A DNA stretch of 30,020 nucleotides from a virus, in IMG/VR virus record IMGVR_UViG_3300030430_003426, positions 1 to 30,020 of that record, one strand, 5' to 3'. A program made the translations under genes and the position numbers. Position 1 is the stretch's first letter. Each line of letters opens with the position of its first letter. The notes beneath the pieces were generated by a model, which was not told where the DNA came from, ran no database searches, and was given only the letters and a program-made list of their open reading frames with translations. Below, in pieces: positions 2,442 to 7,525 of this stretch.

Positions 2442-4046
2442 ATGGCAGTTCAAGTCTCCAAAGAGCAAATCAAAAACAATGCAATCGATTCAACCAAACT
2501 GGATGGGTCGGCTAACTATTCCTTCTCGGGTCAAGTACGTTACACTGGATCTGATACAAACACACAAGCACTTGCAACGCGTGGCTTCGTAGAATCTGTT
2601 GCTGCTGGTCTTGACCCCAAAGACAGTTGTAAGGTTGCTACGACAGCAAACATTACATTGAGTGGAACACAAACGATTGACGGTGTGTCGGTATCTGCTG
2701 ACGACCGTGTTGCTGTCATCGCCCAGTCAAATGCCGTAGAGAACGGTATTTATATTTGTGCTGCTGGTTCATGGTCACGTGCATCAGATATGGCAGCAGC
2801 AAGTAACGCTGCCGGTGCCTCATTCTTTGTTGAGCAGGGTACTGCAAATGGAGACAAAGGTTTTGTTTGTACATCCAACAAGGGTTCGGATGTTGTAGGC
2901 ACCAACAGTTTGACCTTCAGCCAGTACACAGGGGCTTCTAACATTGAAGCTGGAGCTGCCCTGACAAAGACAGGTGACCGTCTCGATGTGGCTGTAGATG
3001 ATTCATCTATTGAAATTTCATCGGATGCGTTGCAGGTTAAAAGTGGTGGTATTACCGACAGCATGCTGGCTGGGTCCATTTCGAACTCAAAATTGTCCAA
3101 CTCTACCATTAGTGGTGTTGCTCTTGGTGCAAGTTTGAATGCATTGACTGCTTCTGCCACTGGTGGTCTGAGTCTTAGTGCGAGTTACAATGGTTCTTCC
3201 GCTGTATCTGCTAGCATCAACCTTGACGGTTCAAGTTTGAGCACTGGTTCAAGTGGACTTAAAGTTGCAACAGGTGGTATCTCTACATTGATGCTTGCTG
3301 ATGATGCTGTAAGTGCAGCAAAGTTGGCTGATGCAGCTGTAGTCACGGCCAGTATTGTTGACTTGGCAGTAACAAGTGCCAAGATTGCAGCAAACGCTAT
3401 CATCACAGCAAAGATTGCAGATTCAGCAATTACAAATGCCAAACTCGCTGGGAGTATTGGAGCCGATAAACTCACCCTGGGTAACGGTCTTGAAAACTCC
3501 AGTGGCTCTCTCATCGTATCGCTTGATGGTGGTAGCCTGGCTCTTGGTGCTGGTGGTCTTAGTATTGCTGCTGGTGGTGTAAGTGCTACAGAGTTGGCAT
3601 CTAACGCTGTAAGTGCGGCAAAGATTGCTTCAAACGCTGTTGAGACTGCCAAGATTGCAGACGATGCTGTTACATCAGCAAAGATTGCAGACGCTGCTGT
3701 AGATGCTGACCGACTTGCATCAAATGCTGTGACCACAGCAAAGATTGCCGATGCCAATGTGACTGCTGCCAAGTTGAACTTTATGGCATCTTACGAAACA
3801 TTGTCTGCTGGTGATGGTTCTGCTACCACATTCGATGCTGCAGCTGCTGCGGATGAAACCATGCTCGGTGGTGCTATTGTATTCCGAAACGGTCTGGCAA
3901 TGGGTCTCGTTGAGTCTTCACCTTCTGGTCAAGACCAATATACCCTGTCTGCAACAGGTGGTAGTGGCTCGAAATTACGCGTGACTTTTGGTGCGGCTCC
4001 AAACAACGGAGACCAAATCACTGTCATGTATTTCCAGGTTTCTTGA
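2442..4046 (+). CDS. Tail fibre protein with decapeptide repeats
   Basis: 534 residues behind a strong AGGAG. The N-terminal ~165 residues contain a module common in phage fibres: a DTNTQALATRGFVES segment, then GLDPKDSCKVATTANI, TIDGVSVSADDRV and AVENGIYICAAGSW. A Gly/Ser/Ala-rich shaft follows. It has two blocks of exact 10-residue repeats (residues ~281-340 and ~381-440) of the form AVxSAKIADx, separated by a GNGLENSSGSL-type spacer that appears twice. The last ~80 residues form a compact beta domain ending in ITVMYFQVS. This composition suits a trimeric fibre that contacts the host surface. An intrinsic terminator lies directly downstream, so it ends a transcription unit. Confidence 0.9.
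   Translation: MAVQVSKEQIKNNAIDSTKLDGSANYSFSGQVRYTGSDTNTQALATRGFVESVAAGLDPKDSCKVATTANITLSGTQTIDGVSVSADDRVAVIAQSNAVENGIYICAAGSWSRASDMAAASNAAGASFFVEQGTANGDKGFVCTSNKGSDVVGTNSLTFSQYTGASNIEAGAALTKTGDRLDVAVDDSSIEISSDALQVKSGGITDSMLAGSISNSKLSNSTISGVALGASLNALTASATGGLSLSASYNGSSAVSASINLDGSSLSTGSSGLKVATGGISTLMLADDAVSAAKLADAAVVTASIVDLAVTSAKIAANAIITAKIADSAITNAKLAGSIGADKLTLGNGLENSSGSLIVSLDGGSLALGAGGLSIAAGGVSATELASNAVSAAKIASNAVETAKIADDAVTSAKIADAAVDADRLASNAVTTAKIADANVTAAKLNFMASYETLSAGDGSATTFDAAAAADETMLGGAIVFRNGLAMGLVESSPSGQDQYTLSATGGSGSKLRVTFGAAPNNGDQITVMYFQVS
3282..3461 (+). repeat. 30-bp tandem coding repeats, first block (tail fibre shaft)
   Basis: Six imperfect 30-bp units each encode a 10-residue repeat (for example SAAKLADAAV and TSAKIAANAI). 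The period is constant with no indels. AAG-ATT-GC (KIA) is the most conserved part. Confidence 0.85.
3582..3761 (+). repeat. 30-bp tandem coding repeats, second block (tail fibre shaft)
   Basis: Six units of the same decapeptide repeat (SATELASNAV, SAAKIASNAV, ETAKIADDAV and so on), with a seventh partial unit after 3761. They are more alike than those of the first block, which suggests more recent expansion or homogenisation. Confidence 0.85.
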
Positions 4047-5256: not shown

Positions 5257-5300
5257 GGAGTTCAGAGCTGGCCAGCGTCTGAACTCCTTTTGATTTTTTT
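5257..5300 (+). terminator. Strong intrinsic terminator closing the left plus-strand unit
   Basis: A perfect 10-bp stem (GGAGTTCAGA / TCTGAACTCC) encloses the self-complementary GCTGGCCAGC and is followed by TTTTGATTTTTTT. There is no T-run on the opposite strand, so it acts on plus-strand transcripts. It overlaps the last codons of the minus-strand HTH gene. Confidence 0.9.
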
Positions 5301-5555
5301 ACGCCACCGTGCTTCTACCATCTTCATTTCTTCCATGCTGGTAATCGCTTCAAACATGAGCTGTGTGGGGCTGCGCTCTTCTCTGTTGGCAATGACAGTC
5401 ACCAGTACAATTAGGTTGCTCATGCGTGGCTCATACGCTCCAGATAGGTACTTGTTGATGGTGTTTACATGTAGTCCAGCACGATCAGCCATGTAGGTTG
5501 TGCTGACCGCATTGCGGTGCATTGCTTTGTTTAGCCATGAAGCAAATCCCTTCAT
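5262..5555 (-). CDS. Small HTH (XRE-like) DNA-binding protein
   Basis: 97 residues from the ATG at 5555. The frame is open further upstream, but that part is a Val run encoded beside a terminator. Residues ~15-50 fit an XRE helix-turn-helix: STTYMADRAGLHVNTINKYLSG, then a loop YEPRMSN and helix LIVLVTVIA. A charged C-terminal helix (SMEEMKMVEARWRKKIKR) follows. The last codons lie in the stem of the plus-strand terminator. No good SD is seen at 5555. A minus-strand terminator sits about 20 bp upstream, so expression probably depends on read-through. It resembles the two other HTH proteins of the operon. Likely a phage transcription regulator. Confidence 0.7.
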   Translation of the reverse strand: MKGFASWLNKAMHRNAVSTTYMADRAGLHVNTINKYLSGAYEPRMSNLIVLVTVIANREERSPTQLMFEAITSMEEMKMVEARWRKKIKRSSDAGQL

Positions 5556-5567
5556 CACCACCACCAC

Positions 5568-5599
5568 TAAAATAAAAGGGCAGGGAACCACCCCTGCCC
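5568..5599 (-). terminator. Intrinsic terminator/attenuator between two HTH genes
   Basis: On the minus strand, GGGCAGGG / CCCTGCCC (8 bp, 6-nt loop) is followed by TTTTATTTT. It follows the HTH gene ending at 5638 and precedes the HTH gene starting at 5555, with no room for a promoter in between. Confidence 0.85.
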
Positions 5600-5637: not shown

Positions 5638-5853
5638 TCATTTGTCCGCCTGTATCAACACTGATAATTGTAGGTATGCTTGCTCCCATTCATCTGGGTA
5701 CAGGTATTGACAGAGTTCCAACAGTAGTATCACGGTTGGTACACGGTCACCGGATAGCCACTTGGCTAAGGTGTCACGGTGACATCCCAGGTCTTTTGCC
5801 AACTGTGTTTTGTTGACTGTTGATAAAATTTCCTTCAGTTTTTGTGCGAACAT
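5638..5853 (-). CDS. Small HTH (XRE-like) DNA-binding protein
   Basis: 71 residues from the ATG at 5853, which has GGAGG five bases upstream; longer starts lack this. Residues ~13-50 form a helix-turn-helix: NKTQLAKDLGCHRDTLAKWLSG, then DRVPTVILLLELCQYLYP. It overlaps the end of the methyltransferase gene by 19 bases, so it is probably translated from the same message. It is close in plan to the HTH protein at 9014-9250 (WLSG/WVDG, RVP, xYP). It is short for a repressor and has no dimerisation or cleavage domain, so a Cro-like regulator is plausible by inference. Confidence 0.8.
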   Translation of the reverse strand: MFAQKLKEILSTVNKTQLAKDLGCHRDTLAKWLSGDRVPTVILLLELCQYLYPDEWEQAYLQLSVLIQADK

Positions 5854-6776
5854 GCTGCCTCCAGTAGTCCTGATTTTACGATTTGTTGTCCAACCCATTC
5901 GGCGCATTGTGGGACGACAGCGTTTCCGAGTGCTCTAAGTCTGTCCACCCGATGGGAAATCCCATCATCTCTTCTACGAACAGGGGATTGAGTCGGAAAT
6001 CCTTGCCAGTGGTTTTGTTGAGGCCTTGGAGTTTGGCTGCTTCCACATTGAGACTGTTGTGACGTGCCCACTGACTCGCTCCAGATGGGTTGTTCTTTGA
6101 CTCGTTGACTGTTGGTGTTGTAAGTAGACCCTTCTGTATCATGTACATGAGTGGACGACCGCCCTGATTGTACTGTGTCCGATGTTCGGCTCCCGACTTG
6201 GTTGGTGTTGGCAGTAGTCCATCGACCGTCAACGAGTTCTCCAAATGCCATAGCGTTCTGCATGTAGTATCCAATGGTGCTTGGGTAGGCGACTGCAAAC
6301 CACCTGCGTCTAAGGTGGGGTGCTCCACATTGTGCAGCTGATATAATCGTCCACTCGATGTCATACCCGATTGCGGCAAGACTTCCAACAACGTCGGGTC
6401 CGCCCACTCGAATGATGTTTGCGACATTTTCCAACACCAAGATTGGTTGATGTCCGATTGACTGAAACTCGCTAACAAGTCGGTGGACGTGCCACCAAAG
6501 ACCAGACTTTTCCTCATTTTCTAACCCCTCCATATTTCCACAGACTGAGATCGACTGGCACGGAAACCCTGCACAAATCACATCTACTGGTTCTAAGTTG
6601 TGTGCTCCTATTGTACGCACATTGTTGTATCGTTTTGTATTAGGCCAATGTCGCTCCAAAACAGAACGACAGAACTCTTCCTTCTCTACCTGCCAGACTG
6701 TTTGCAAACCTGGGATAGCACGCTCCAGTCCAAGTTCAATACCTCCGATGCCACTAAACAGACTACCCATCTTCAT
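5835..6776 (-). CDS. C5-cytosine DNA methyltransferase
   Basis: 313 residues from the ATG at 6776 (GAGGA five bases upstream; a GTG at 6788 is the longer option). It transfers a methyl group from S-adenosylmethionine to cytosine C5 in DNA. Motifs in order: I GSLFSGIGGIELGLE (~4-18), IV GFPCQS with the catalytic Cys (~70-75), VI LENV (~115-118), VIII QCGAPHLRRRWF (~149-160) and X RLRALGNAVVP (~279-289). All look intact. The region between VIII and X, where the target-recognition domain sits, is Ser/Thr/Gln/Asn-rich and looks weakly structured. A second long frame runs through it. With no cognate nuclease visible, it is probably an orphan enzyme protecting phage DNA from host restriction. Confidence 0.95.
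   Translation of the reverse strand: MKMGSLFSGIGGIELGLERAIPGLQTVWQVEKEEFCRSVLERHWPNTKRYNNVRTIGAHNLEPVDVICAGFPCQSISVCGNMEGLENEEKSGLWWHVHRLVSEFQSIGHQPILVLENVANIIRVGGPDVVGSLAAIGYDIEWTIISAAQCGAPHLRRRWFAVAYPSTIGYYMQNAMAFGELVDGRWTTANTNQVGSRTSDTVQSGRSSTHVHDTEGSTYNTNSQRVKEQPIWSESVGTSQQSQCGSSQTPRPQQNHWQGFPTQSPVRRRDDGISHRVDRLRALGNAVVPQCAEWVGQQIVKSGLLEAACSHKN
5876..6517 (-). CDS. Candidate overlapping gene inside the methyltransferase (+1 frame)
   Basis: A 213-residue frame on the same strand, shifted +1 and wholly inside the methyltransferase gene. The ATG at 6517 has GGAGGGG about seven bases upstream. It does not look like frame-shadow sequence. It has SGMTSSGRLYQL, two LLPTPT/LLTTPT units each followed by a polar stretch (LLPTPTKSGAEH, GLLTTPTVNESKN), and then LNPLFVEEMMGFPIGWTDLE near the C-terminus. 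I recall the PTPT repeats and the LNPxFVExxMGFPxGWTxL motif from phage proteins encoded at or near methyltransferases, where they are read as a real protein. The GFPIGWTDL codons in the other frame encode the motif X region. It could instead be conserved only because the methyltransferase DNA is. Confidence 0.5.
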   Translation of the reverse strand: MRKSLVFGGTSTDLLASFSQSDINQSWCWKMSQTSFEWADPTLLEVLPQSGMTSSGRLYQLHNVEHPTLDAGGLQSPTQAPLDTTCRTLWHLENSLTVDGLLPTPTKSGAEHRTQYNQGGRPLMYMIQKGLLTTPTVNESKNNPSGASQWARHNSLNVEAAKLQGLNKTTGKDFRLNPLFVEEMMGFPIGWTDLEHSETLSSHNAPNGLDNKS

Positions 6777-7065
6777 TGCTATCCTCACTTGGGAACTCTT
6801 TGTCCCAGCTGTCTTTTATGGTCTTGGCAAGTGCACCGAGATGCTTGCACTTGGAGCCACGGTATTGGTGGTCGGGGCAGCTGCATGTAAACCCATTGTC
6901 ATCAATCACACAGGTCCATCGTGGTGTGTGACCAACCATGCTGCCATCTGACAGCATGTTGGTTTTCAGTTCCTTTTGCACCTTCTCTACACGGTCGTCA
7001 TCAAACAATCCTTTTAGTCGCCAGTGCTCGACAAGCTCTTCTATAGTTTCAGTCATGGTCGGCAT
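6763..7065 (-). CDS. SWIM-type zinc-finger protein
   Basis: 100 residues from the ATG at 7065 (GGAG about six bases upstream). The C-terminal half carries a canonical SWIM zinc finger, CxCx9CxH: C61, C63, C73 and H75, in the context CSCPDHQYRGSKCKHLGAL. SWIM domains bind DNA or protein partners. The N-terminal half (TETIEELVEHWRLKGLFDDDRVEKV) is helical and acidic, and the C-terminus is acidic (FPSEDSNEDG). The gene overlaps the genes on both sides (14 and 17 bases), placing it in a tightly coupled operon with the methyltransferase. A small DNA-binding accessory in replication or modification is the best guess. Confidence 0.85.
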   Translation of the reverse strand: MPTMTETIEELVEHWRLKGLFDDDRVEKVQKELKTNMLSDGSMVGHTPRWTCVIDDNGFTCSCPDHQYRGSKCKHLGALAKTIKDSWDKEFPSEDSNEDG

Positions 7066-7525
7066 GGTTTTCTCCAAGCGCCCCATCCATCCAGTCCATC
7101 AATGCACCGACAGATGTGTTTTCATGGTACTTCATTTCTTTGTCGAGGTACAATGTAACGTCTACGTATGCGATGTCATTGACATCATTGCTGACGTACA
7201 GGATGTGGTGATGACCCCGCTGACAGTAGAATGGATGCATCCACCCACGCTCCCCATTGAAGTTGGGTGGAGTGGTATCTGGACAGTGTAACCATCCAAG
7301 TCGCTGCAGTTCAATCCCGTAGGATTCAATTTGTAGGTCGAGCTGCTTGTATCGTTCGAGCAAGTCAGACTTGGGTGCTCTCTCTCGATACCAGTCTTCA
7401 ATCATGTCCTGCACTGGATGCAATGCATCAATGGCAACTAGAATGGTGTGCGCCTTTTGCAACGTACTTTTGGTGGCGTTGTCTTTTACTTGGTTAATGA
7501 TGTGTTGGAAATGTTCTAAGAACAT
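7049..7525 (-). CDS. Hypothetical early protein
   Basis: 158 residues from the ATG at 7525, with GGAG seven bases upstream and an AACCTACCA leader motif further up. The N-terminal ~80 residues are helical (FLEHFQHIINQVKDNATKS, then DLLERYKQLDLQIESYGIELQRL). The rest is beta-like with several His, Cys and aromatic residues (GWLHCPDTTPPNFNGERGW, FYCQRGHHHILYVSND). The cluster C, C, H-H-H could bind metal but has no standard spacing. I do not recognise the family. It lies between the helicase-loader candidate and the SWIM protein, overlapping the latter by 17 bases. Confidence 0.7.
   Translation of the reverse strand: MFLEHFQHIINQVKDNATKSTLQKAHTILVAIDALHPVQDMIEDWYRERAPKSDLLERYKQLDLQIESYGIELQRLGWLHCPDTTPPNFNGERGWMHPFYCQRGHHHILYVSNDVNDIAYVDVTLYLDKEMKYHENTSVGALMDWMDGALGENHADHD

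Follow-up and report, generated by a model that had tools for sequence, protein, structure and literature searches.

A conserved protein overprinted on a phage cytosine-5 methyltransferase gene carries motif IX and is probably the second subunit of the enzyme

A methyltransferase gene with a second frame inside it

The window, by which we mean the whole stretch of DNA analyzed, is a virus record of 30,020 bases. On its minus strand it carries an open reading frame (ORF) for a cytosine-5 DNA methyltransferase (MTase), named here alpha, and a second ORF, named beta, lies entirely within alpha on the same strand in the +1 frame. The features of the locus are the following, with the basis of each in brackets:

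5835..6788, minus strand: alpha, the outer cytosine-5 MTase ORF, with motifs I-VIII and X (PF00145, phrog_363, M.HhaI-like model)
6555..6563, minus strand: motif IV of alpha, PCQ with the catalytic cysteine, upstream of the beta start (translation; invariant in the alpha alignment)
6527..6531, minus strand: Shine-Dalgarno sequence of beta, GGAGG, 9 bases ahead of its ATG (sequence; kept in relatives)
6521..6523, minus strand: TAG in the beta frame, one codon ahead of the beta ATG (sequence)
5876..6517, minus strand: beta, the nested ORF, 213 amino acids, with an ATG start, LPTPT repeats and motif IX (phrog_1008, relatives, permutation tests)
6297..6332, minus strand: motif VIII of alpha, QCGAPHLRRRWF, overlapped by the N-terminal part of beta (invariant A153, H155, R157, R159)
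6200..6217, minus strand: beta repeat LLPTPT, residues 101-106 (translation; L-P-T-P common among aligned betas)
6110..6127, minus strand: beta repeat LLTTPT, residues 131-136 (translation; columns 132-135, LPTP, nearly invariant)
5945..5995, minus strand: motif IX of beta, RLNPLFVEEMMGFPIGW, residues 175-191 (invariant columns; IX-X segments of in-frame relatives)
5907..5933, minus strand: motif X of alpha, ALGNAVVPQ, coded shortly after motif IX (translation, alignment, spacing)

Counted from a GTG, alpha has 317 amino acids; a start at the ATG at 6776, which has GAGGA ahead of it and gives 313 amino acids, is likelier. Alpha matches PF00145 (E 1.3e-37) and phrog_363 (E 9.4e-66), and motif I, PCQ, ENV, motif VIII, motif X and an AdoMet-dependent MTase fold identify it as a cytosine-5 MTase. 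In the AlphaFold model, motifs I-VIII and X are predicted with confidence and residues 180-255 have a pLDDT below 50. The model resembles M.HhaI (Foldseek E ~1e-12; VIA-align Z 22.5, rmsd 2.7, ~200 residues aligned). Given this match and the predicted disorder of residues 180-255, alpha looks like a large domain that lacks the small one by which DNA is read.

For beta, the matching families are phrog_1008 (E 2e-17), which is annotated "DNA methyltransferase", and two phrogs without an assigned function. All 64 aligned beta proteins match phrog_1008, and we counted 462 beta-related stretches in viral contigs. The window's beta has a T at position 133, where aligned betas have the nearly invariant LPTP of columns 132-135. 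No Pfam match was found for beta or for other beta members, and sequence searches of the PDB with beta or the beta profile found no methyltransferase. The two proteins thus belong to phrog_1008 (beta) and phrog_363 (alpha), both simply annotated "DNA methyltransferase", and the DNA that they share is not recorded there. In some Paenibacillus phages both coding sequences are annotated, each as a DNA cytosine methyltransferase, so annotators have met the overlap. Modeled alone by AlphaFold, beta gives a poor structure (pLDDT 55, pTM 0.23), which would be consistent with folding on the partner chain but proves nothing in this respect.

Two small helix-turn-helix ORFs (PF01381), at 5638-5907 and 5262-5591 on the minus strand, lie directly 3' of the MTase gene, the first of them overlapping the end of alpha. 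Either the MTase operon or the phage could be under their control. We considered triple coding at 5876-5907, by alpha, beta and the downstream helix-turn-helix ORF, and rate it as unlikely, since the better start of the latter gene is the ATG at 5853, with GGAGG ahead of it. A SWIM zinc-finger ORF (6763-7086, minus strand) directly upstream overlaps the start of alpha. Farther away, positions 2442-4046 of the plus strand encode a repetitive protein of 534 amino acids, rich in Ala, Ser and Asp, that matches tail fibre and virion structural families. An Rfam search over the locus returned no match.

Conservation of the layout and selection on both frames

Alpha and beta are both open, in the same +1 relation, in all 80 viral contigs fetched with beta and in the phage records examined, and among these loci we saw no close relative with an intact alpha and a broken beta. 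To avoid selecting on beta, we retrieved 80 loci with only the alpha profile as the query. Of these, ~79 have an open +1 ORF bearing the motif, 66 by a strict pattern and 13 of the other 14 by eye, L165 being unclear. The longest +1 ORF of the alpha-fetched loci has a median length of 234 codons, versus 55 in the +2 frame. The number of +1 stops is 10-28 in control MTases taken from plasmids of E. coli, Klebsiella, Bosea and Vibrio (27-28 for the E. coli and Klebsiella ones). The layout is seen across phages of Bacteroides, Paenibacillus, Mycobacterium, cyanobacteria and many uncultured hosts. Except at contig ends and in Streptomyces phage Samy, the overlap spans ~140-330 codons in beta-bearing loci, and its length tracks the number of LPTPT units; in Samy, alpha stops after motif VIII. 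In a Prevotella bivia genome (L125:1402-2979), the two frames are open together over just under 500 codons, with many LPTPT-like units.

We shuffled the synonymous codons of alpha in a manner that preserves its protein sequence and codon usage. Among 2000 such shuffles, the beta frame stays open in 0.05%, with a mean of 5.4 stops. Scored with a beta profile built only from sequences less than 60% identical, the real frame reaches 218 bits versus 48 +/- 12 for the shuffles (maximum 96). The residual 48 bits measure the shadow that alpha casts on the other frame; canonical MTases give up to ~20 bits in +1. When the three segments of beta (N-terminal, LPTPT and motif IX) are scored separately, each exceeds the maximum of 300 shuffles in seven of seven divergent loci. 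The shadow is greatest for the N-terminal part, over the conserved alpha motifs IV-VIII. This part of beta is partly alpha shadow, and its own function is the least certain of the three.

Rates at codon positions were computed from nine disjoint pairs and also over all pairs. In the 5' region that encodes alpha only, the third position of alpha is the fastest (0.282 versus 0.138 and 0.075, nine disjoint pairs). Between motifs VIII and IX the order is reversed: the rate is 0.256 at alpha position 1 (beta position 3) and 0.132 at alpha position 3 (beta position 2). The 95% confidence interval of this difference, -0.175 to -0.072, excludes 0. The divergence at fourfold sites of alpha in close pairs is 0.354 before beta and 0.094, 0.099 and 0.155 in three regions of the overlap.

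Beta is therefore a conserved protein and not a shadow of the MTase frame, and both frames are selected as proteins. A sequence-only reading of this DNA had described a 213-codon +1 frame, wholly within the MTase gene and on the same strand, with its own ATG and GGAGGGG, and had judged that its product resembles a genuine protein. The frame is present as described, and the shuffles, the profile score and the rates bear out its interpretation as a protein. The proposal that the stretch between motifs VIII and X is shaped by the inner frame is directly demonstrated by the codon-position rates. That reading had also named two properties to look at in homologues, stops in the inner frame and synonymous variation in the MTase frame: the former were not found and the latter is depressed.

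Division of the motifs between the two chains

Among 77 loci, motif IX is in no case in the alpha frame and in 76 cases in beta (two recognized by eye), the exception being a fragment at a contig end. Conversely, motif X (GNxVxP) is encoded by alpha in 74 of the 77 loci and by beta in one. In 61 loci, 26 nt separate the end of the motif IX coding sequence from that of motif X. Nine residues are invariant in the 64 betas, P178, F180, V181, E182, M184, M185, G186, F187 and P188 in window numbering, which gives PxFVExMMGFP; the motif in the window's beta is represented by LNPLFVEEMMGFPIGW. The invariant columns of alpha correspond to the catalytic-domain motifs and motif X, and none comes from motif IX. 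With motif IX in beta, alpha alone departs from the canonical single-chain plan, in which one chain combines this motif and the target recognition domain with motifs I-VIII and X.

We identified the beta segment as motif IX because, in relatives, it directly precedes motif X in one chain. This is the case in the single-chain MTases of Gordonia phage Jabberwocky and Mycobacterium phage Ritam007, in the C-terminal halves represented by Peaches gp76, Andrew gp44 and the Samy pair, and in MTases of Candidatus Megaera plasmids (RLNPDWVEWLMGYPISWTDGGSRMQRLQSLGNAVVP). The IX-X segments of these in-frame relatives match positions 277-322 of PF00145, although the best hit (E 0.008) does not reach the curated cut-off. 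They also match DRM2 methyltransferases in their IX-X region (E 5e-5). Phrog_1008 also covers the C-terminal half of single-chain MTases. The sequence-only reading had noted that the DNA encoding GFPIGWTDLE in the inner frame encodes GISHRVDRLRA in the outer one, which is correct; its assignment of this stretch to motif X is not, as the stretch lies just before ALGNAVVPQ and its inner product is motif IX. Its view of a whole gene overprinted on an essential catalytic fold is not supported in the sense of a gene supplementing an enzyme that is already complete: alpha is devoid of motif IX and beta carries it, so beta most likely corresponds to the missing half of the enzyme and not to an add-on. 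Homologues outside a fully overlapping gene, which it had suggested looking for, were found, in each case as part of another MTase.

The relatives display various arrangements of the same modules. In actinophage single-chain MTases, the LPTPT units, motif IX and motif X are all in one ORF. In two of these genes (L129:1353-2687 and L130:1356-2747), the beta profile gives 74-77 bits to the +1 frame over the N-terminal part, in which LPTPT units and stops occur. Judging from the sequence, this frame looks like a relic of the N-terminal part of beta, and the fused actinophage forms therefore probably derive from an overlapping ancestor by frameshift. In two Candidatus Megaera plasmids from two strains (L108:1480-2505 and L133:780-1808), motif IX is in the alpha frame and the LPTPT units are still in +1, which suggests an intermediate or decaying form. 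A Vibrio plasmid MTase (L110:1492-2736) has, within one chain, motifs I-VIII, then X and then an in-frame beta-like segment that includes motif IX; it is apparently a naturally permuted cytosine-5 MTase. We also considered beta as an independent gene with homologues outside MTases and rejected this possibility, as every homologue examined is in or beside an MTase.

A two-subunit enzyme encoded by one stretch of DNA

Both frames are selected, motif IX is only in beta, and the two parts are fused or split in relatives. The locus very probably encodes a two-subunit cytosine-5 MTase of the M.EcoHK31I type from a single stretch of DNA, with beta as the second subunit; the relatives in which the beta module is fused in frame to an MTase, or forms a tandem C-terminal half, point to this role. 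Alpha would provide the catalytic Rossmann domain, with the AdoMet-binding motif I, the PCQ cysteine, ENV and motif VIII, and a polar, probably disordered bridge would link this domain to motif X. Beta, presumably translated by internal initiation at its own Shine-Dalgarno sequence and ATG, would provide the small domain, made of the LPTPT-repeat region and motif IX. The repeat region probably reads the target sequence. Like the subunits of M.EcoHK31I, the two chains may then assemble as a heterodimer into a single active enzyme. This phage enzyme presumably protects the phage DNA from host restriction by methylating it.

Ribosomal frameshifting within the overlap could, instead of beta or besides it, join the N-terminal half of alpha to the LPTPT units and motif IX in one chain. 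The genomic fusion that some actinophages (L129 and L130) carry indicates that such a product can fold. However, beta has its own start codon and Shine-Dalgarno sequence, conserved in 29 of 30 relatives versus 13.4 expected under alpha-synonymous shuffling, and an in-frame stop is often found immediately ahead of the start. At the locus itself, the TAG at 6521-6523 closes the beta frame and rules out entry into it from farther upstream. Furthermore, motif X stays in the alpha frame, so a shifted chain would need a second shift to reach it, and selection also acts on the N-terminal part of beta, which precedes any plausible shift site. The Shine-Dalgarno sequence, the stop before the ATG and the position of motif X favor separate initiation of beta, and we regard frameshifting as quite improbable.

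We consider it very improbable that beta is a genuine overprinted protein that acts outside the catalytic enzyme, as a regulator or an unrelated partner involved, for instance, in the control of the MTase or in counteracting host defense. The absence of a Pfam or PDB match of its own and its poorly predicted structure would be in line with such a role, but its C-terminus is the MTase motif IX that is missing from alpha, and its family constitutes the C-terminal half of other MTases. Of the two roles that the sequence-only reading had envisaged, that of a partner agrees with a second subunit, whereas that of a regulator is not supported for a protein that supplies motif IX and probably target recognition. 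There is next to no chance that the inner frame is an untranslated shadow kept open by conserved alpha motifs and codon bias: such a shadow is measurable, in shuffled genes as in canonical MTases, but no shuffle scores as high as the real frame in any segment, canonical MTases have many +1 stops, fourfold sites are conserved, rates are reversed between motifs VIII and IX, and alpha has no motif IX.

Returning to the two-subunit enzyme, M.EcoHK31I and M.AquI are both two-subunit cytosine-5 MTases, the former with the target YGGCCR and the latter split after motif VIII. The original 1995 report on M.EcoHK31I is said to have described a small gene nested in the alternate frame of the large one, which is the position of beta within alpha. 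The large subunit of this enzyme carries motifs I-VIII and X and the small subunit motif IX (PMC3404938), which is the division that we observed between alpha and beta. In contrast, its target recognition domain is predicted on the large subunit (PMC3404938), whereas here the LPTPT repeats are on beta and the bridge of alpha is polar and disordered. The present locus differs also in being phage-borne, with no restriction gene recognized among the neighboring ORFs examined. In M.AquI, the small chain has both motifs IX and X (PMC3404938). Beta resembles it in carrying motif IX, but here motif X belongs to alpha and one gene lies entirely within the other; from the distribution of motif X (alpha 74/77, beta 1/77), we rejected the M.AquI layout for the window locus. 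The Samy, Peaches and Andrew phage pairs look closer to the M.AquI layout. In phage ShiLan, the methylase gene likewise conceals another protein, an HNH endonuclease, read in an alternate frame (PMC11855218). There, it represents a mobile insertion, whereas beta is part of the methyltransferase.

A two-subunit cytosine-5 MTase with motif IX on its small chain is a kind already known. In the open-licence papers searched, we found no description of its phage-wide occurrence, of a nested subunit bearing repeats or of frame switching. We lean, on somewhat better than even grounds, towards a phage and prophage MTase family that makes two proteins from one DNA by default. In this family, a DNA-reading half with expandable LPTPT repeats would be overprinted on the catalytic half, over ~140 to nearly 500 codons, and frameshifts would have repeatedly moved modules between frames, as in the fused actinophage forms with their +1 beta relic and in Megaera, where motif IX is back in the alpha frame. 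If this is true, few long same-strand overlaps in phages would be larger or more widespread, and this one would have gone largely unrecognized. Long, fully nested genes on the same strand are regarded as rare among tailed phages and are often dropped by gene callers. The overlap explains a set of phage annotations as "DNA methyltransferase" and "hypothetical protein", and alpha expressed without beta would probably be inactive. The growth of the beta repeats is mirrored by the polar bridge of alpha, which suggests a route to new target specificities within an overlapping gene. Loci of this type represent a natural test bed for selection acting on two proteins in one sequence.
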